Made by a program: the position numbers and the translations under genes. The notes under the pieces are model-generated. The model ran no database searches. It was not told the origin of the DNA and worked only from the letters and a program-made list of their open reading frames with translations. Below, piece after piece: positions 54,577-64,000 of a stretch of 64,000 bases of DNA. Numbering within the stretch: the first letter of the stretch is position 1; every line of letters begins with the position of its first letter. This stretch comes from Hyphomicrobium sp. (GTDB taxonomy: Bacteria > Pseudomonadota > Alphaproteobacteria > Rhizobiales > Hyphomicrobiaceae): the NCBI GenBank assembly GCA_030148725.1, contig JASBSU010000041.1:1-64000 (forward strand). Direction: 5' to 3'.

Positions 54577-54861
54577 TTAAACATGGCACCGTGCTCCCAG
54601 ATACTGGTCGAGCAGATCGCTGTAACGTGTGGCTTGGCTGCGCTGTTCCGGATTGAGTTTCCCGCCGCTTGAAAGGCGTTCGACGTAGGCCGGAACCCCA
54701 CGGCGATCCAGCCCGCGCAGCTCCTGTTGTATGCCGGTGCAAGTTTGGCCTTTGGGCAGCGGCCGCGCCCCGGGATCGGTTGCGGCGTTGCTCGCGGCGC
54801 AGCCCGCGAGAACGGGAACAGAAAGAAGCGTTGGAAAGAACCAGGTGCGATTATTCGGCAT
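54577..54861 (-). CDS. Small putative lipoprotein (94 aa)
   Basis: A 94-residue protein with a lipoprotein signal (TLLSVPVLAGCAAS, lipobox LAGC). The mature part has TCTGIQQELRGLDRRGVPAYVERL and ends DQYLGARCHV. Both this protein and its downstream neighbour have a helix carrying an internal Cys and a C-terminal Cys, and may be distant relatives. It is divergent from the response-regulator gene starting 142 bases away. Confidence 0.7.
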   Translation of the reverse strand: MPNNRTWFFPTLLSVPVLAGCAASNAATDPGARPLPKGQTCTGIQQELRGLDRRGVPAYVERLSSGGKLNPEQRSQATRYSDLLDQYLGARCHV

Positions 54862-55002
54862 GTCAGATCCGTGGTCGCTCTACGCGGCACACGGAGCGAT
54901 GATACAAGAGGCCAGCGGTCGCGGCTCCTTACGAATGAAGTAAAGTGCGCGCAAAGCGGCAGTAAGCTAGTGCCAGAATATGCTGCCAGGACGGAGGCAC
55001 GG

Positions 55003-55677
55003 TTGAGGATCCTGCTGATCGAAGACGACGCCAAGACGGCTCATTACGTTCGTACCGGGCTGAGCGAGGCTGGTCATGTCGTCGATGTGATTGCTGATGG
55101 ACGCGAAGGTGTCACGCAGGCCATGGGGCAGGATTACGATGTGCTCATTCTCGATAGAATGCTGCCGTACCTCGACGGTCTGTCGATTGCAAAGACGGTG
55201 CGGGCTGCGCGGAGCGGCACGCCGATCCTGTTTCTGACTGCGCTCGGCAGTATCAACGAACGTGTCGAGGGCCTCGACATCGGCGATGACTATCTCGTGA
55301 AACCGTTCGCCTTTTCGGAGCTGCTTGCGCGTGTGAATGCGCTCGGCCGGCGTCCGGCACTGAAGGACCAGAGCGGGATCCTCCAGGTGGGTGATCTGGT
55401 GCTGGATACGACGACGCGTCTCGTGACGCGCGGGGGCACGCGCATCGAGCTACAGCAGAAGGAGTTTACGCTGCTCGAGTTCCTGATGCTCAACAAGGGG
55501 CGCGTGGTTACACGAACCATGCTTCTGGAACGCGTGTGGGACTTGCATTTCGATCCGCGGACAAGTGTCGTCGAGACGCACATCTCGCGGCTGCGTGGCA
55601 AGATAGACCGGCCCTTCGACAAAGCACTGCTGCAGACCGTGCGCGGCACCGGCTACATGCTCACCGATGCTTCGTGA
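55003..55677 (+). CDS. OmpR/PhoB-family response regulator (CopR/CusR-like)
   Basis: A 224-residue DNA-binding response regulator. The receiver has acidic residues in ILLIEDDAKTAHYVRTGL, phospho-acceptor D51 in LILDRMLPYLDG and the conserved Lys in YLVKPFAFSELLAR. The C-terminal winged helix (about 125-224) has ELQQKEFTLLEFLMLNKGRVVTRTMLLERVW and VVETHISRLRGKI. The TTG start was chosen because GGAGG (54993-54997) is 5 bases upstream and because it gives the standard receiver N-terminus. The sequence is closest in style to heavy-metal regulators, but the signal is not certain. Overlaps the kinase gene by 11 bases. Confidence 0.92.
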   Translation: MRILLIEDDAKTAHYVRTGLSEAGHVVDVIADGREGVTQAMGQDYDVLILDRMLPYLDGLSIAKTVRAARSGTPILFLTALGSINERVEGLDIGDDYLVKPFAFSELLARVNALGRRPALKDQSGILQVGDLVLDTTTRLVTRGGTRIELQQKEFTLLEFLMLNKGRVVTRTMLLERVWDLHFDPRTSVVETHISRLRGKIDRPFDKALLQTVRGTGYMLTDAS

Positions 55678-57061
55678 GCTCGCCAAGCGCTCGCAGGTAA
55701 GGCTCGCTGCCACCTTTGCCGTTCTCCTCGCGCTCGCGACGACCACGCTCTTCACCCTGCTTATCGTCAATCTCAATGATGAGCTGGAGGATCGCGTGCG
55801 TGCGCGTGTCCTGCGCACGAAGGATGCGCTGCTCGCCGTGGATCGCAAGCACGGGTTCGATGAACTCGTGAGCGTGGTAGCGGATGAGGCGGATTCGCTG
55901 CGAGACGCAGACAACATCTACATGCTGCTCGGCGACGACGGCAAGGTCTACGCAGGTAACGTCCTTCGCGCGCTGCCGTTCGATGGCTGGCGGGTGATCC
56001 CACGATCCGAGCTGCCCTCGGTGCAGGGCATTGGCTCGCCCCGCGATCGCTTCTTCGCCGTGTGGACGCCCGTTTCGAAGGGCAAGCTGCTTGTGGGTGG
56101 CAGCGACCGAGAGGTGCGGCAGGCCAGGCTGATCCTGTTGCACAGCGTGGGTTGGGGGCTTTTGATAACCGCCGCCATAGCCATCGGAGCCGGCGTGTGG
56201 CTGGCGCATCGGGCGCAGCGTCGCATCGACGATATCGGAAATACCTTGGCCGCGGTCTCATACGGGCAGCTCGACAAGCGCATCGAAACGCGACCGCATG
56301 GAGACGATCTCGACGATGTCACGGGCAGCATCAACGCGATGCTGGACCGTTTGCAGCGTCTCATTCAGAGCGTCAATCAGGCGTCGACCGACATCGCACA
56401 CGAGCTCAAGAAGCCGATGATGCGTCTGCGTGAAAAGCTCGAGGCAGCGAGCGAGCGGGCAAACAGCGTCGAGGCTTTCAAGGAGGCCGTGGACGATGCG
56501 CTGGTTCAATCCGACGCTATCGTTGCAACCTTTGAGGGGCTGCTCAACATCAGCCAGCTGCAGGCAGGGACGCGCAAGGCCCGCTTTGCAGACGTGAACC
56601 TTCTGGAGGTCGCGGCCGATGTCGGCGAGCTGTTTCAACCCGTCGCCGAGGATGAAGGTAATACGCTGCGGATCGATGTTCCAAAGGACATCAAGGCGTC
56701 GATCCGCGGAGATCGTGGCCTGCTTGTGCAACTGTGCGCCAACCTCATCGAAAATTCTCTGCGCCATGCACGTGGCGCGGTGGGCATCGTGCTTTCGCTG
56801 CGCAAAGACGGGAATGATCTCGTTCTCGAGGTGAGCGACAATGGAGCGGGTATCCCCGTTGGGGAGCGCGCAAACGTTTTCAGGCGGTTCTATCGCATCG
56901 AAGGCGCCAGCGCTGCGGAAGGACACGGCCTCGGCCTCAGTCTGGTTGCGGCCATCGCCGACTTGCACGGGGCCAGCATTGAACTTGCCGACAATGCTCC
57001 CGGCCTGCGCGTGATCATCAGGTTCCCCACCGCTGCGAGCGCTCCCTTACATAAAAAGTAA
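55667..57061 (+). CDS. Sensor histidine kinase
   Basis: A 464-residue membrane kinase, partner of the upstream regulator. Two TM segments (AATFAVLLALATTTLFTLLIV and LLITAAIAIGAGVWLAH) flank a periplasmic sensor domain of about 130 residues. A HAMP domain follows (AQRRIDDIGNTLAAVSYGQLDKRIE). The phospho-acceptor is H245 in DIAHELKKPM, where the more common form is HELRTPL. The ATPase domain has the N box LCANLIENSLRHARG, the G1 box VSDNGAGIP and the G2 box GHGLGLSLV. The signal sensed is unknown. Confidence 0.93.
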   Translation: MLRELAKRSQVRLAATFAVLLALATTTLFTLLIVNLNDELEDRVRARVLRTKDALLAVDRKHGFDELVSVVADEADSLRDADNIYMLLGDDGKVYAGNVLRALPFDGWRVIPRSELPSVQGIGSPRDRFFAVWTPVSKGKLLVGGSDREVRQARLILLHSVGWGLLITAAIAIGAGVWLAHRAQRRIDDIGNTLAAVSYGQLDKRIETRPHGDDLDDVTGSINAMLDRLQRLIQSVNQASTDIAHELKKPMMRLREKLEAASERANSVEAFKEAVDDALVQSDAIVATFEGLLNISQLQAGTRKARFADVNLLEVAADVGELFQPVAEDEGNTLRIDVPKDIKASIRGDRGLLVQLCANLIENSLRHARGAVGIVLSLRKDGNDLVLEVSDNGAGIPVGERANVFRRFYRIEGASAAEGHGLGLSLVAAIADLHGASIELADNAPGLRVIIRFPTAASAPLHKK

Positions 57062-58487: not shown

Positions 58488-58503
58488 CTGGCACAACACT
58501 TGC
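58488..58503 (+). promoter_or_regulatory. Sigma-54 (RpoN) promoter
   Basis: CTGGCACAACACTTGC: GG at 58490-58491 and GC at 58502-58503 are separated by exactly 10 bases, and the match to TGGCAC-N5-TTGC is complete. Transcription would start about 12 bases downstream, near 58514, inside the inverted repeat at 58507-58538. Sigma-54 promoters need an NtrC-type activator; no clear enhancer site was found upstream. Confidence 0.8.
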
Positions 58504-58506
58504 CTA

Positions 58507-58538
58507 GAGTATTACGAACTTCGCAATTCGTAATACTC
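58507..58538. promoter_or_regulatory. Large perfect inverted repeat, NikR-like operator
   Basis: GAGTATTACGAA (58507-58518) and TTCGTAATACTC (58527-58538) are exact 12-bp inverted repeats around an 8-base spacer. The inner hexamers GTATTA (58509-58514) and TAATAC (58531-58536) are 16 bases apart, the same geometry as the E. coli NikR site GTATGA-N16-TCATAC. It overlaps the predicted start of the sigma-54 transcript and lies 28 bases before the first codon of the operon, so a bound protein would block transcription. The likely ligand is the NikR-like product encoded at 63656. Confidence 0.8.
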
Positions 58539-58565
58539 GCCTGGGTGTGTCTGAAGGAGGTTGGA

Positions 58566-59555
58566 ATGGGGTGCAAAGCTCGCCTGAGCATGGTGCTGGG
58601 GCTCGCGTTCTCGCTTGCGTTGTCGGTGATCGGCGGTGCCGTCGCTGCGCCGCTCAAAGTCGCCTACAGCGACTGGCCCGGCTGGGTCGCGTGGCAGGTC
58701 GCTATTGAAAAGGGTTGGTTCAAGGAAGAGGGCGTCGACGTCGAGTTCGAGTGGTTCGACTACGTGCCCTCGATGGATGCGTTCAGCGCCGGCAAGGTCG
58801 ATGCCGTGTGCATGACCAACGGCGATGCGCTGGTGGTGGGAGCGACGGGCGGCAAGAGCGTCATCGTCCTCATCAACGACTACTCCAACGGCAACGACAT
58901 GATCGTCGCCAAGCCGGGCATCAAATCTCTCAAGGATCTGGTCGGCAAGAAGGTCGGTCTCGAGGTCGGTTTCGTCGACCATCTCCTGCTGCTGAACGGG
59001 CTCGAGAAGGCCGGCATCAAGGAATCCGACGTCACGCTGGTCAACACGAAGACGAACGAAACTCCGCAGGTTCTGGCCTCCGGCGATGTCGACGCCATTG
59101 GCGCGTGGCAGCCGAGCTCGGGACAGGCGCTCAAGCTCGTGCCGGGTTCTTCGGCCATCTACACGTCGGCCGACGAGCCGGGGCTCATCTATGACGTGCT
59201 GGCCGTCAATCCGGCGAGCCTGTCGAGCCGCCGCGCTGATTGGCTGAAGGTCGTCAAGGTGTGGGGCAAGGTCGTTGCCTACATCAACGATCCAAAGACC
59301 ACGGACGATGCCTTGAAGATCCTCTCCGGACGCGTCGGACTGAAGCCGGAAGAATACAAGCCATTCCTTGGCGGAACGAAGCTGCTGACGCTCGCCGAGG
59401 GCGCGAAAGTTTATGAAAAGGGCGATGGCTTCAAGTCGATCTACGGTTCGACGCAGATCGTCGACGACTTCAACATCAAGTACGACGTCTACAAGGAGAA
59501 GCAGGACGTCTCTTCCTACATCGATCCCTCGCTGACGATTGAAGCAGCGAAGTAA
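58566..59555 (+). CDS. ABC transporter substrate-binding protein (NitT/TauT type)
   Basis: A 329-residue periplasmic binding protein with a signal peptide ([19 protein letters not shown]). The fold is of the SsuA/TauA/NMT1 group: [69 protein letters not shown]. The group binds small anions and organic nitrogen or sulfur compounds; the ligand here cannot be read from sequence. AGGAGG at 58555-58560 fixes the ATG at 58566. First gene of a six-gene unit behind a sigma-54-type promoter. Confidence 0.92.
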
Positions 59556-59590
59556 GCAGGCCGTATCGGCTGGCAAGGGCTAGGGCATCG

Positions 59591-60556
59591 ATGAGCCACG
59601 CGAAACTGTTCATGATCCGGGCGCCCTTGTCGCCCACATCGAGGACGCTGTTCGCGGTCCTATCGTTTGCCTTGCCGCTGCTTGTCTGGTGCGCGGTCAG
59701 CTACGTACCGTGGATCTGGCACCCGATGGTGGTGGTGTCGGACCCTGGCAGCGTCAGCTACTTCAAGGACGGTATGCGGGTGCCGCGAGAGACTTTCGAT
59801 CGCGAAGTGGTCACCGCCAAGCAAAGCGGGGGGGCCGTGCCGAGCGGCCACCCTGCAAACCCCGTTTATCTGCCGGCTCCGCACCAGGTGGTGGCGGCGC
59901 TCTACACATCATTCACGACGCCGCCGCAGACGCGGGACGGGAAGTGGCTGCACGAAAGCCTTTGGCAGAGCGTACAGATCATCTTCTGGGGCTTTCTCAT
60001 ATCGTCGCTCATCGGCGTGCCGCTCGGCATTCTTTGCGGCGCGTATTCGGGTATCTCGCGCACCACCGAGCCGTTCACCGAGTTCTTCCGCTACCTTCCG
60101 GCTCCAGCGTTCGGAGCGCTCGCGGTGGCCATCCTCGGTATCTACGATGGGCCGAAGATCGCGATCATCGTCATCGGCACGCTGTTTCAGCAGATCCTCG
60201 TCATCGCCAATACCACGCGCACGCTCGACTATCCGCTGGTCGAGGCAGCGATGACGCTCGGCACGAAGCGGCGGCAGATGCTTCCGCGTGTGGTCATTCC
60301 GGCAATGATGCCGGCGATCTTTCGGGACCAGCGCATTCTGCTCGGGTGGGCGTGGACATACCTCATCGTCGCCGAGCTGATTGGCACGTCGTCGGGCATC
60401 ACCTGGTTCATCACGCAGCAGGCGCGATACCAGAATTTTCCGAACGTCTATGCCGCGATCATCATCATCGGAATCCTCGGTCTGACGACCGATCTGGTGC
60501 TCGCCTATCTCGGGAAGCGGCTCTTCACCTGGGATCGCACGGGGCAGACGAGGTAG
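59591..60556 (+). CDS. ABC transporter permease (NitT/TauT type)
   Basis: A 321-residue inner-membrane permease. The first TM ([20 protein letters not shown]) is followed by an unusually long periplasmic segment of about 80 residues ([21 protein letters not shown] and on), then the core TMs with [39 protein letters not shown] and the ATPase-contact loop [27 protein letters not shown]. It follows the binding-protein gene by 35 bases and precedes the ATPase gene by 2. Confidence 0.92.
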
Positions 60557-60558
60557 CC

Positions 60559-61479
60559 ATGGACAAGCTTGTTTCATCACCTAGCTATCTCGATCAGTCG
60601 GCCGCCGTGCGCGAGCGTTTCGACCGCCTCAAGGAGCGCGAGGTCATCCTCAGCGTGCGCAACTTGAACAAAGTGTTCAGCGCCAACGGCAGGGAGACCG
60701 TGGCGCTTCGCGACGTGAGCTTCGCGACGCATCGACGGGAGTTCCTGTGCGTCATCGGATCATCGGGTTGCGGCAAGTCCACGCTGGTGCGGATACTTGC
60801 CGGTCTCGAGACGCAGACCTCCGGTGAGGTGCTGGTCGAAGGGAAGCCCGTGGAGGGGCCGGGTCGCGATCGCGGCATGGTGTTCCAGACGTACACGCTG
60901 TTTCCGTGGCTGACCGTGAAGAAGAACGTCATGTTCGGCCTCGAAGTGAACAACGCGGGCAGGTCCGAGGCGGAGGCGCAAGCGCTGCAGTGGCTCGACC
61001 TCGTCGGGCTTTCGAAGTTTGCGGACAGCTACCCCTATCAGTTGTCGGGCGGCATGAAGCAGCGCGTCGCGATCGTGCGGGCGCTCGCCAATCAGCCGCG
61101 TGTGCTCCTGATGGATGAACCGTTCGGCGCGCTCGATGCGCAGACGCGCGCCAAAATGCAGGCGCATCTCCTGGAGATCTGGCGGAAGATCGACATCACC
61201 ATCGTTTTCATCACGCACGATCTCGATGAGGCGATCTTCCTCGCGGACCGCATTCTCGTGCTGAAGCCGCACCCGGGCGAGGTGATCGAGATGATCGAAG
61301 TGCCCGTGCCGCGTCCGCGGCATGAGCGGCAGGTGACGTCGGAGGAGTTCCTCGCGACGCGCCGCCGGCTCGATGAGCTGATCCATGCGCCGACCAGTCA
61401 CGCTCAGGACGAAGAGGACGAAGCGGGCTTGCACGCCGCCCTGGCGCGGCTCACCGACGTAACGGACAACGTGGAGTAG
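60559..61479 (+). CDS. ABC transporter ATP-binding protein (NitT/TauT type)
   Basis: A 306-residue ATPase. Walker A is GSSGCGKST, the Q-loop is [10 protein letters not shown], the signature is LSGGMKQR, Walker B is [12 protein letters not shown] and the switch His is in FITHDLDEA. An N-terminal extension of about 30 residues and a C-terminal extension of about 40 acidic residues ([17 protein letters not shown]) exceed the usual length and might be regulatory. Powers the importer encoded just upstream. Confidence 0.95.
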
Positions 61480-61488
61480 CGACGTTCG

Positions 61489-62247
61489 ATGCTTTGGTCG
61501 CAGCGCACATGGGCAGAGCTGCCCGCCGATATCACTGCAGCGCGACAGGCCGCGATATTGCCGGTCGGTGCAACGGAACAGCATGGGCCGCATCTCGGCA
61601 CCGGCATGGACTGGGTGCTGGCCGATCGCCTTTGTACGGCGGTAGCGGCGCGCACGGGCGTGCCAATGCTGCCGGTTCTGCCGTACGGATGCTCGCTCGG
61701 GCATAGCCTGCGCTGGCCGGGGACGATCGCGGTGCAGCCGACAACGCTGATCCAGATCGTCAAGGAGATCGGCGACTGGGCCTATCATAGCGGCGTGCGG
61801 CGGTTGTTCATCGTCAACACGCACGTGACGAACTTTGCGCCGCTGCGGTGCGCGCTTGAGATGCTGCGCGCCGAGCACGACGATCTGATGGTTGCCGTCA
61901 TCAACTCGGCGCACGTCAGCCCGCGCGTCAAGGCAGCGCATTTCGCAGAGGGCGACGACTGGCACGCCAACGGTGCTGAGACCTCGCTGATGATGGCGGT
62001 GGCGCCGGACATCGTGCGGGAGGCGCTGATCGCCAGTTCGGACGACCCCGATCGCACGGAAGGTCTGGTGTTCTCGCATCCGGTCAATCGCACGAGCGTC
62101 AATGGCGTCACCGGAGCGCCGAGCGGCAGCAGTCTTGCCTCTGGGCAAGAGCTGTTCGGGTGGATGGTCGATGATCTCTCAGCGCTGGTCGAGCGCGGCA
62201 AGCACGAAGAGCCGCCACTCCCGCATTCCTACTTTTCGCAGGTTTAG
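61489..62247 (+). CDS. Creatininase-family amidohydrolase
   Basis: A 252-residue member of the creatininase/mycofactocin-MftE family of metal-dependent amide hydrolases. Metal-ligand motifs: E30 and H32 in GATEQHGPH, D41 in GTGMD, H112 in NTHVTN, and WHANGAETS with H159 and E164. Compared with creatininase, the NGHxEN motif is NTHVTN, so the Glu after the His is missing; many family members also lack it. It probably cleaves a ring or linear C-N amide bond in the imported compound; the substrate is unknown. It lies 9 bases after the ATPase gene. Confidence 0.88.
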   Translation: MLWSQRTWAELPADITAARQAAILPVGATEQHGPHLGTGMDWVLADRLCTAVAARTGVPMLPVLPYGCSLGHSLRWPGTIAVQPTTLIQIVKEIGDWAYHSGVRRLFIVNTHVTNFAPLRCALEMLRAEHDDLMVAVINSAHVSPRVKAAHFAEGDDWHANGAETSLMMAVAPDIVREALIASSDDPDRTEGLVFSHPVNRTSVNGVTGAPSGSSLASGQELFGWMVDDLSALVERGKHEEPPLPHSYFSQV

Positions 62248-62277
62248 GCACAGGTAACACGACCTAAGAGAGGACGC

Positions 62278-63639
62278 ATGACGGCCAACGGTGACATCGC
62301 GAAGCTTCAGAAAAGCCTCGAAGATAAGGGGATCAAGTATTGCATCGGCGCGTATGTCGACATTCACGGCGTCCCGAAGGGAAAGGTCGTTCCGATCGAT
62401 CATCTCGAGCACATGGCGCACGGCTCGGAGCGTTACACGGGCTATGCGCTCGATGGTCTCGGGCAAGCGCCGCACGACGATGAGATCACGTCGATCCCCG
62501 ACTTCGGCCATATCATCCAGCTGCCCTGGGAGCCGAAGGTTGCGTGGATCCCGGCGGATAACGAGTTTCAGGGCAAGCCGTATCCGCTCAACACCCGCGT
62601 TGCGCTGAAGAAGGTGATGGCGGAGGCGGCTGAGATGGGCTTCGGCTTCAATCTCGGTGTCGAGTGCGAAATCTTCGTCTTGAAGAAGAACGCCGACGGC
62701 TCGCTGTCGATCCCAAGTCCGGACGATAAGCTCGTGAAGCCCTGCTACGACCTTGCAGGGTTCATGGACAACTTCACCTGGCTCGATCAAATGGCGTCGG
62801 CGATGAAGACGCTCGGATGGGATCTCTACTCATTCGACCATGAGGACGCGAACGGGCAATACGAGTTCGACTTTGCCTATTCTGACGCTCTGACGACTTG
62901 CGATCGGGTGACGTTCTTCCGCTTCATGGCGAAGCACTACGCCAAGGAGCAGGGGCTGATCGCCACGATGATGCCGAAGCCCTTCGCCAACAAGACGGGT
63001 ACGGGTGCGCATTTCAATATGTCGCTCTCCGACCTGAAGACCGGCAAGAACGCTTTCGCGTGCGATCCGAAGGACGATCCGCGCGGGCTGGGGCTAACGG
63101 AAACGGGATATCACTTCATCGGTGGCATCCTGAAACACGGACGTGCGCTTTGCGCTGCGTTTGCGCCGACGGTCAACAGCTACAAGCGGCTCGTGCGCCA
63201 GGGCGGTATGGCGTACTTCTCGTGGGCGCCGGTGTTCAACTCCTATGGGTCGAACAATCGCACGAACTCGGTGCGTGTTCCGGCCGGGGGCGGACGTTGC
63301 GAGTCACGTAATGCGGACGGCGCCGTCAATCCATATCTGGCTGCAACACTCGCCCTTGCTGCCGGCCTCGATGGCGTGCGCAACAAGATCGATCCGGGGC
63401 AGCCCAACGAAGACAATCTCTACGCCATCGGTGAAGCCGAGCGGCGCGCGCGAGGGATCGAGTTCCTGCCGCAGACGCTGCAGGAAGCGGTCGAGGCGTT
63501 CGCTGCCGATCCGCTGATTGAAGAAACTCTCGGAAAAGAACTGCGCGATGAGTTCATTCTCTACAAGCGCAACGAATGGGAGGCTTACCACCTTGCAGTC
63601 AGCCCGTGGGAAATCGAGCGCTACACGCACCTCTTCTAA
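62278..63639 (+). CDS. Glutamine-synthetase-like ligase (type III / GMAS group)
   Basis: A 453-residue GS-fold ligase joining glutamate to ammonia or an amine with ATP. Seen: N-terminal beta-grasp ([14 protein letters not shown]), GVECEIFVL with metal-binding Glu, [21 protein letters not shown] and [30 protein letters not shown]. Where true GS has DGSS, with Asp50 and Ser53 shaping the ammonium site, this protein has D59-G-L-G, as in gamma-glutamylmethylamide synthetase and other amine ligases. So an amine acceptor is plausible. Commonly annotated type III glutamate-ammonia ligase. Its place after an importer and an amidohydrolase suggests it traps the amine or ammonia released. Confidence 0.88.
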
Positions 63640-63655
63640 GGTGGCGGAGAAAGAC

Positions 63656-64000
63656 ATGCTGGGTACCGCGCCCGAGTCGCGTTTCGTCAGCCGCATCAGC
63701 ATCTCTCTCCCGGAGAGGCTGCTGACGGAGCTCGACTCTATGGTTGGCGATCGCGGCTTTCAGAGCCGGTCGCAGGCCATCAACGACATGCTGCACAAGT
63801 CGTTGATCGAGCACCGGCGCGAGCATGGCGAGGGCGTGATGGTGGGTACCATCACACTCTACTACAAGAACGCAACGCCCGGCTTGCAGAAGAAGCTGGC
63901 GGATTTGCAGGCGGTGCACATCGACGAGGTCATCAGCTCGCTGCACATCCATCTCGCGAACAACGAGACGATGGAGGTCATCCTCGTGCAGGGGCCAGCA
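63656..64000 (+). CDS. NikR-like ribbon-helix-helix regulator (3' end cut by window)
   Basis: The first 115 residues are present. Residues 9-52 are the ribbon-helix-helix DNA-binding domain (RFVSRISISLPERLLTELDSMV, SRSQAINDMLHKSL). Residues 60-115 are the ACT-like sensor domain (GTITLYYKN, SLHIHLANN). Aligned with E. coli NikR, H97 and H99 match ligands H87 and H89, but H76 is A86 and C95 is T105, so the classical square-planar nickel site is incomplete; H88 lies two residues from the lost His. The ATG at 63656 has GGAG 8 bases upstream; GTG 63641 is an alternative. Last known gene of the operon whose promoter carries a NikR-like palindrome. Confidence 0.9.
   Translation, partial: MLGTAPESRFVSRISISLPERLLTELDSMVGDRGFQSRSQAINDMLHKSLIEHRREHGEGVMVGTITLYYKNATPGLQKKLADLQAVHIDEVISSLHIHLANNETMEVILVQGPA

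Follow-up and report, generated by a model that had tools for sequence, protein, structure and literature searches.

The DNA studied here (the window: 64,000 nucleotides, bases 1-64000 of the 148,927-bp contig JASBSU010000041.1, so that contig and window coordinates coincide) comes from a genome labelled Hyphomicrobium and ends inside a same-strand unit of 12 genes at contig 58566-72842. From sequence comparison we read this unit as very probably a sigma-54-driven operon for the assimilation of nitrogen from methylguanidine and guanidine. Its front half encodes an ABC importer (binding protein SBP, permease PERM and ATPase ATP), a creatininase-family hydrolase (CREAT), a glutamine synthetase (GS)-like ligase (GLNT) and a NikR-like regulator (NIKR), all on the + strand with gaps of 2-35 bp. 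The initial annotation had recognized these six closely spaced genes correctly, but they are only the front half of the set: six further + strand genes, with gaps of 3-34 bp and the final two overlapping, continue past the window to 72842 (Table 1). It had also proposed that the unit imports an unknown amide or amine. What speaks for guanidine and methylguanidine instead is the downstream gene content, together with the guanidine-I riboswitches that precede the orthologous importer gene in 11 relatives. As far as we have found, what is new here is the pairing of CREAT with GLNT in a guanidine operon, along with the NikR-like protein and the operator predicted for it.

Table 1 Features of the operon (contig coordinates; the window ends at 64000)
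Feature	Position	Strand	Basis
Sigma-54 (-24/-12) promoter, TGGCAC-N5-TTGC	58489-58503	+	Motif score and conservation in relatives
Predicted operator of the NikR-like regulator, GTATTAC-N14-GTAATAC	58509-58536	.	Dyad search, comparison
SBP, periplasmic binding protein, NMT1/SsuA-like	58566-59555	+	Best model TIGR03427
PERM, ABC importer permease	59591-60556	+	Family models
ATP, ABC importer ATPase	60559-61479	+	Family models
CREAT, metal hydrolase in a subfamily of its own within the creatininase family (PF02633)	61489-62247	+	Family score, residues, fold model
GLNT, type III GS / gamma-glutamylmethylamide synthetase-like gamma-glutamyl ligase	62278-63639	+	TIGR03105, Trp316
NIKR, NikR-like ribbon-helix-helix regulator without the Cys nickel ligand	63656-64123	+	Gene cut by the window at 64000
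MGDL, MgdL-type lyase, 273 aa, without Pfam match	64130-64951	+	
MGDH, MgdH-type 2-oxoglutarate/Fe(II) dioxygenase	64969-66012	+	
UAAP1, DUF1989 carboxyguanidine-deiminase-type protein	66047-66769	+	
UAAP2, DUF1989 carboxyguanidine-deiminase-type protein	66784-67431	+	
Guanidine ('urea') carboxylase	67435-71064	+	1879.4 bits against a cut-off of 1303.85
Allophanate hydrolase	71061-72842	+	

The downstream half of the operon

The carboxylase, the two DUF1989 proteins and the allophanate hydrolase stand together and all four score above a curated cut-off. A guanidine carboxylase pathway made up of a carboxylase, a carboxyguanidine deiminase and an allophanate hydrolase is described in excerpts of PMC12186494. 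Operons for it in Raoultella, Klebsiella and others likewise join these genes to an ABC importer (same excerpts); the Hyphomicrobium unit differs in adding CREAT, GLNT and the NikR-like gene, and in having a sigma-54 site and a predicted operator where no guanidine riboswitch was found.

Within this carboxylase-type operon a 2-oxoglutarate (2OG) dioxygenase adjoins a protein of no known family. The same arrangement is seen for Vreelandella boliviensis in excerpts of PMC12508155, where a 2OG dioxygenase is the methylguanidine hydroxylase MgdH and a 'hypothetical protein' is the N-(hydroxymethyl)guanidine lyase MgdL, both encoded alongside ABC genes in an operon of the guanidine carboxylase type. 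The catalytic residues D49/R51 given there for MgdL have the same spacing as D40/R42 of MGDL, an Asp-x-Arg pair that is invariant in 29/29 and 25/25 homologues in two sets. The MGDL model is all-beta (predicted local distance difference test (pLDDT) 92.5) and places both residues on strand 37-43; its fold search gave one match at E <0.001, yeast YLR301w (3rby, TMq 0.52), which is uninformative. Compared with the V. boliviensis operon (same excerpts of PMC12508155), MGDL and MGDH here lie between the regulator and the DUF1989 genes, no riboswitch was found, and CREAT, GLNT and NIKR are added. The Hyphomicrobium label also lies outside the halophile genera named in those excerpts; the operon predicts methylguanidine use beyond them.

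In a phylum sample of 398 genomes, 14 have MGDL and 46 have the carboxylase, and every one of the 14 belongs to the second group (Fisher 1e-14).

These genes suggest the following course of events. When nitrogen runs short, sigma-54 polymerase activated from an enhancer could fire, but the NikR-like protein, presumed to act as a repressor on its 28-bp operator near the start site, would block transcription until a guanidino compound arrived. The importer would take up methylguanidine or guanidine. By resemblance to the described enzymes, MGDH would hydroxylate the methyl group of methylguanidine and MGDL would cleave the N-(hydroxymethyl)guanidine so formed, yielding guanidine and formaldehyde. 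Guanidine would then be converted to allophanate and NH3 by the carboxylase together with the DUF1989 pair, and allophanate hydrolase would release the rest.

Conservation across relatives

Scanning with a CREAT alignment (A1) gave at least 562 confirmed stretches, and our counts on relatives use the best 80 of 562. These are labelled Alpha-, Beta- and Gammaproteobacteria and Verrucomicrobia, and many are methylotrophs or sulfur oxidisers. A genome search for conserved co-occurrence, which the initial annotation had proposed, found GLNT on the same strand and within 1.2 kb of CREAT in 79 of the 80, and the SBP-permease-ATPase trio upstream of the pair in 58 of the 69 with room for it. Of the 76 loci long enough to show a NikR-like gene, 51 have one. 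The carboxylase is present in 73/80 cassette genomes, on the locus in 53 (tblastn) and, over the model cut-off, elsewhere in 20 of the other 27, whose whole genomes were searched (L110 was covered as G001); in the phylum sample it is present in 46/398.

The operon is patchily distributed by these searches, since neither MGDL nor, at E 1e-40, CREAT turned up in the three sampled genomes of the same genus. Searched against plasmids, CREAT (E 1e-30) and MGDL (E 1e-5) had no match.

Several observations weigh against a guanidine operon. No guanidine riboswitch was found in this genome's own 20-kb stretch (Rfam, gathering score), and SBP, whose best model is that of a urea-carboxylase-region binding protein (TIGR03427), scores 154.7 bits, far below the cut-off of 333.9. 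The likeness of MGDH and MGDL to the V. boliviensis proteins, and of the DUF1989 pair to CgdA/B, is indirect, coming from gene context, the MGDL residues and model scores. MGDL or MGDH is on the locus in 9/80 relatives, leaving 71 without either, and some MGDL homologues stand on 20-kb stretches where no MGDH or carboxylase was found (L029 and L168-L170), which suggests that the lyase family is wider than methylguanidine. Finally, six of the 80 cassette genomes have no carboxylase over the cut-off, two of them labelled isolates (Hyphomicrobium sp. NDB2Meth4 and Methylobacillus arboreus), and L124 has a sub-threshold fragment only; nor is there a carboxylase over the cut-off in G326 (97% complete), which belongs to a group of seven genomes, taken at the level of the order, whose CREAT is close (>=65%). 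Such genomes suggest that importer, CREAT and GLNT may have a carboxylase-independent job.

A conserved promoter and a predicted operator

The initial annotation had noted a complete GG-N10-GC promoter of the sigma-54 type, and TGGCACAACACTTGC at 58489-58503 does match 10/10 scored positions. The pattern has eight matches in its own genome and ten for a reversed control, and so is not above chance alone; the case for the promoter comes from conservation across relatives rather than from this count. A score of at least 9/10 is found upstream of the orthologous SBP in 36/62 relatives, where base shuffles, which take no account of the kinship that the relatives share, expect 0.48. The 62 heads are those of the 80 loci with an SBP match of at least 55%, + strand orientation and 350 bp of upstream sequence.

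Between this site and the SBP start sits a 28-bp dyad, GTATTAC-N14-GTAATAC (58509-58536). It was discovered in this genome and then tested on the 62 other heads plus its own: with at most two mismatches it is present in 43/63 heads, window included, and in none of 20 dinucleotide shuffles per head, and its half-sites at other spacings (6 to 22) occur in 0-2 heads only. The perfect dyad is unique in the genome, where one other place has two mismatches or fewer, as against four for a control pattern. Wherever a sigma-54 site is nearby, the dyad begins 3-15 bp past its GC.

The dyad also accompanies the NikR-like gene, being present in 39/43 heads with the gene on the locus and in 4/20 heads without it. 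In an order sample of 397 genomes, seven have a cassette-type regulator (55-100% identity, all others <=37%), and the dyad, with at most two mismatches, is on all seven of the stretches concerned (L009, L056, L058, L059, L060, L061 and L221); it is absent from the fetched stretch of L057, which also has no NikR-like gene. The geometry (28 bp) matches that of the Escherichia coli NikR operator, which we take to be GTATGA-N16-TCATAC, and the halves in L060 are GTATGAC/GTCATAC. The dyad is predicted to be the operator of the NikR-like regulator, and it probably overlaps the transcription start.

A NikR-like protein apparently in the place of a riboswitch

NIKR has ribbon-helix-helix and NikR_C domains and scores above two NCBIfam NikR cut-offs, and the family named in the initial annotation stands. 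An ordinary nickel regulator it is not, judged by its predicted ligands: the place of the Cys ligand holds Cys in 0/53 cassette members, whereas all 23 more distant NikRs of the order keep it. (The 53 include the window protein and leave out sequences with <40% identity, <75% coverage or an inside stop.) Two of the His places are mostly His (46/53 and 44/53) and the third is His in 33/53. The full set of three His and one Cys, which we take to be the nickel ligands of NikR with these places in those roles, is not found in cassette NIKR. In sum, NIKR shares with the NikR nickel repressor its domains and a 28-bp dyad operator, and differs from it in the missing Cys, in its guanidine operon and in its mutual exclusivity with a riboswitch.

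This exclusivity emerged from an Rfam scan of 45 loci, of which 39 were judged. Of the loci without the NikR-like gene, 11/17 have a guanidine-I riboswitch before the importer, compared with 0/22 of those with the gene (Fisher 7e-6, uncorrected for kinship; judged by eye from record titles, the 11 heads represent about six lineages). In ten loci it is 57-417 bp before SBP; in L090 it is 1010 bp before SBP, ahead of an MGDL gene that itself precedes SBP. Of the six remaining loci with neither gene nor riboswitch, four (L122, L127, L131 and L132) have the operator and two (L125 and L149) do not. Six further loci were set aside because the head was shorter than 350 bp (L138, L139 and L147) or the contig stops before the regulator's place (L073, L145 and L146, the first with a guanidine-I riboswitch before SBP). 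In four loci that do have the NikR-like gene (L094, L111, L130 and L148) a guanidine-I riboswitch precedes the divergent deiminase-carboxylase half, and guanidine-II aptamers occur within a number of loci, both with and without the NikR-like gene, where most of them precede carboxylase or deiminase genes.

Because the dyad tracks the NikR-like gene and the riboswitch precedes the importer only in loci without that gene, a protein switch seems to occupy the regulatory slot of the guanidine-I riboswitch. The NikR-like protein may sense the same compound as the riboswitch, or else another signal for the importer half. Riboswitches opened guanidine biology, and to our knowledge, which is general and comes from no search aimed at this point alone, no guanidine-sensing protein has been described. 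One regulatory slot would be filled by RNA or, seemingly, by protein across related bacteria, and the ligand of the NikR-like protein is directly testable.

One order-sample stretch, L221:7081-10511, holds the importer trio, a divergent NikR-like gene and a perfect operator; neither CREAT nor GLNT was found there. Judging by this locus, the regulator seems to go with the importer rather than with the enzymes.

CREAT and GLNT

CREAT scores 220.3 bits against PF02633 and falls below the MftE, creatininase and IolN cut-offs. Its model (pLDDT 92.6) has creatininase 1q3k as best structural match (template modelling (TM) score 0.83), and the matches include 3a6d, by its entry title a creatininase with bound 1-methylguanidine. 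In an alignment of 81 members, window protein included, the core residues E30, H32, D41, H112, H159 and E164 are kept throughout. The Glu122 place is Thr in 72, Ser in 7 and Gly in 2, and the Tyr121 place is Val; in 81/81 the Trp154 place holds Ala, Pro, Gly, Ser or Met and the Ser78 place Leu, Ile or Val. More distant relatives in alignment A1 retain the Trp. We take these four creatininase residues to belong to the metal/substrate site. On residue tests CREAT is thus predicted to be a creatininase-family member and not a creatininase. With the known family (Pseudomonas putida creatininase, 1q3k/1j2t; MftE; Sinorhizobium meliloti BrbF) it shares the fold and core residues, and it differs in lacking the four residues and in carrying a GHVTN-type motif. 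BrbF is a formamidase, so that members differ in substrate (excerpts of PMC9478397).

GLNT scores 655.6 bits against the TIGR03105 cut-off of 469.6. Trp316 stands where GS has the Glu of 'YEAPV', which we take to be flap Glu327, and is Trp in all 72 GLNT sequences (window protein included; those with <60% identity, <90% coverage or an inside stop left out) as well as in the type III GS / gamma-glutamylmethylamide synthetase (GMAS) structures 7cql and 9qur. The amine-glutamylating kind of ligase named in the initial annotation is borne out by the score and this Trp: GLNT resembles GMAS, and its acceptor is probably a small amine-like nitrogen. It is 38% identical to a second GLNT-type copy in the genome, which stands beside mgsABC-like genes (L183; neighbours by eye). 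Because that copy already occupies such a place, we rejected a plain gamma-glutamylmethylamide route for GLNT.

A third GLNT copy belongs to a second importer operon of this genome (contig C27, L184:8826-13056). The gene order there is PERM-ATP-SBP-GLNT; a TetR-like gene runs divergently, and no CREAT was found alongside. L072 and L075 have a similar layout with CREAT.

Our preferred guess for the pair is a tentative one: GLNT would gamma-glutamylate an amine or guanidine nitrogen, and CREAT would hydrolyse an N-acylguanidine-type bond, because the parent enzyme acts on creatinine, which is an N-acylguanidine in cyclic form. Taking regulator and enzymes jointly, we consider it quite possible, if short of likely, that the NikR-like subfamily has lost nickel sensing and now senses guanidine or methylguanidine, and that GLNT and CREAT carry out an undescribed glutamylation/acylguanidine step. 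If so, activation by glutamylation or release from N-acylguanidines would be an additional route into the guanidine pathway. The operon marks CREAT and GLNT as two widely conserved enzymes that seem to act in guanidine metabolism.

In our literature searches we recognized no paper that links guanidine or urea carboxylase either to NikR or to a creatininase-family gene together with a type III GS, which is not proof of absence. In excerpts of PMC2667541 'urea carboxylase' and 'NikR' occur in unrelated passages; genes of the Mycobacterium smegmatis response to nitrogen limitation include a creatininase-family gene and allophanate hydrolase genes (excerpts of PMC4617892). The initial annotation knew of no described pathway with exactly this set. 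The guanidine steps are those of described pathways (excerpts of PMC12508155 and PMC12186494); their combination with CREAT-GLNT and NikR we found in no paper.

Alternative explanations

A rival built on the initial annotation's proposal is that an unknown amide or amine is imported and hydrolysed by CREAT, with GLNT trapping ammonia or the amine as glutamine or a gamma-glutamyl amide and the guanidine genes being mere neighbours. The near-constant CREAT-GLNT adjacency (79/80), the GMAS-type Trp316 (72/72), the six genomes without a carboxylase over the cut-off, and the occurrence of the CREAT-GLNT pair alongside different importers (ABC genes of weak similarity in L072 and L075; in L063, an SBP_bac_3 protein close to the pair) all fit it. 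We nevertheless think it unlikely, as guanidine-I riboswitches precede the importer-CREAT-GLNT unit itself in 11 loci and the carboxylase is in 73/80 cassette genomes against 46/398 of the phylum sample. A urea operon, in which the importer would bring in urea for a genuine urea carboxylase, would suit the names of the curated models (TIGR02712 and TIGR03427) and the lack of a urease alpha subunit above cut-off in this genome; given that the operon includes MGDH, MGDL and a DUF1989 pair, that relatives have guanidine riboswitches, and that 10/12 tested genomes with a CREAT relative have urease, it is extremely improbable. A search for the arginase family, which matched 8/12 genomes and this one weakly (30.6 bits), was not decisive.

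The remaining two readings concern single proteins. Were CREAT a creatininase, the operon would degrade creatinine via creatine to methylguanidine; the shared fold (TM 0.83 to 1q3k), the methylguanidine bound by creatininase in 3a6d and the L168 and L169 operons, which join a canonical-looking creatininase and an MGDL-type lyase to the same kind of importer, speak for this. The replacement of all four active-site residues in 81/81 CREAT sequences, and the absence of a creatinase-like match among the operon proteins, make it very improbable. A sensor of nickel or another metal, under which the operon would be metal-regulated, is suggested by the NikR scores of NIKR, by the operator, whose 28-bp geometry we assume to be that of E. 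coli NikR, and by the two mostly conserved His places. It is set against a third His in only 33/53, a Cys ligand present in 0/53 cassette members but in 23/23 distant NikRs, and exclusivity with the guanidine-I riboswitch, and we hold it to be improbable. The urea, true creatininase and nickel operons were all considered and rejected; guanidine and methylguanidine assimilation remains our reading of the operon.

Related loci and neighbouring genes

The L168-L170 operons, from the same phylum (L168:3919-11467, L169:8266-17424 and L170:6777-17445), contain an NMT1-type importer, a desaturase-like gene, EamA, a creatininase-family gene and an MGDL-type lyase; L169 and L170 additionally have a metallo-beta-lactamase (MBL)-fold gene. 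By eye, the creatininases of L168 and L169 have DGHYEN and WDF as in true creatininase, and SDR- and isochorismatase-like frames accompany them. These operons possibly encode a creatinine/creatine route that releases methylguanidine, a compound with no known enzymatic source according to excerpts of PMC12508155.

Around the importer the cassette varies. In L122, L125, L127, L131 and L132 SBP is present with EamA nearby, and neither a permease nor an ATPase turned up at the locus. Genes of the FA_desaturase family, MBL-fold genes, xylose-isomerase-like TIM-barrel genes and EamA occur as accessories beside the cassette (L089, L090, L095, L108, L122, L125, L127, L130, L131, L132, L144, L149 and L150); neighbour clustering likewise returned desaturase, MBL-fold, TIM-barrel and EamA genes as optional, and did not settle the role of CREAT-GLNT. 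L108, a metagenome-assembled genome labelled Klebsiella pneumoniae (a doubtful label), has the five front genes at 67-77% identity. Upstream of the operon in the window, frames at 54727-57061 resemble, by eye, a response regulator and a sensor kinase.

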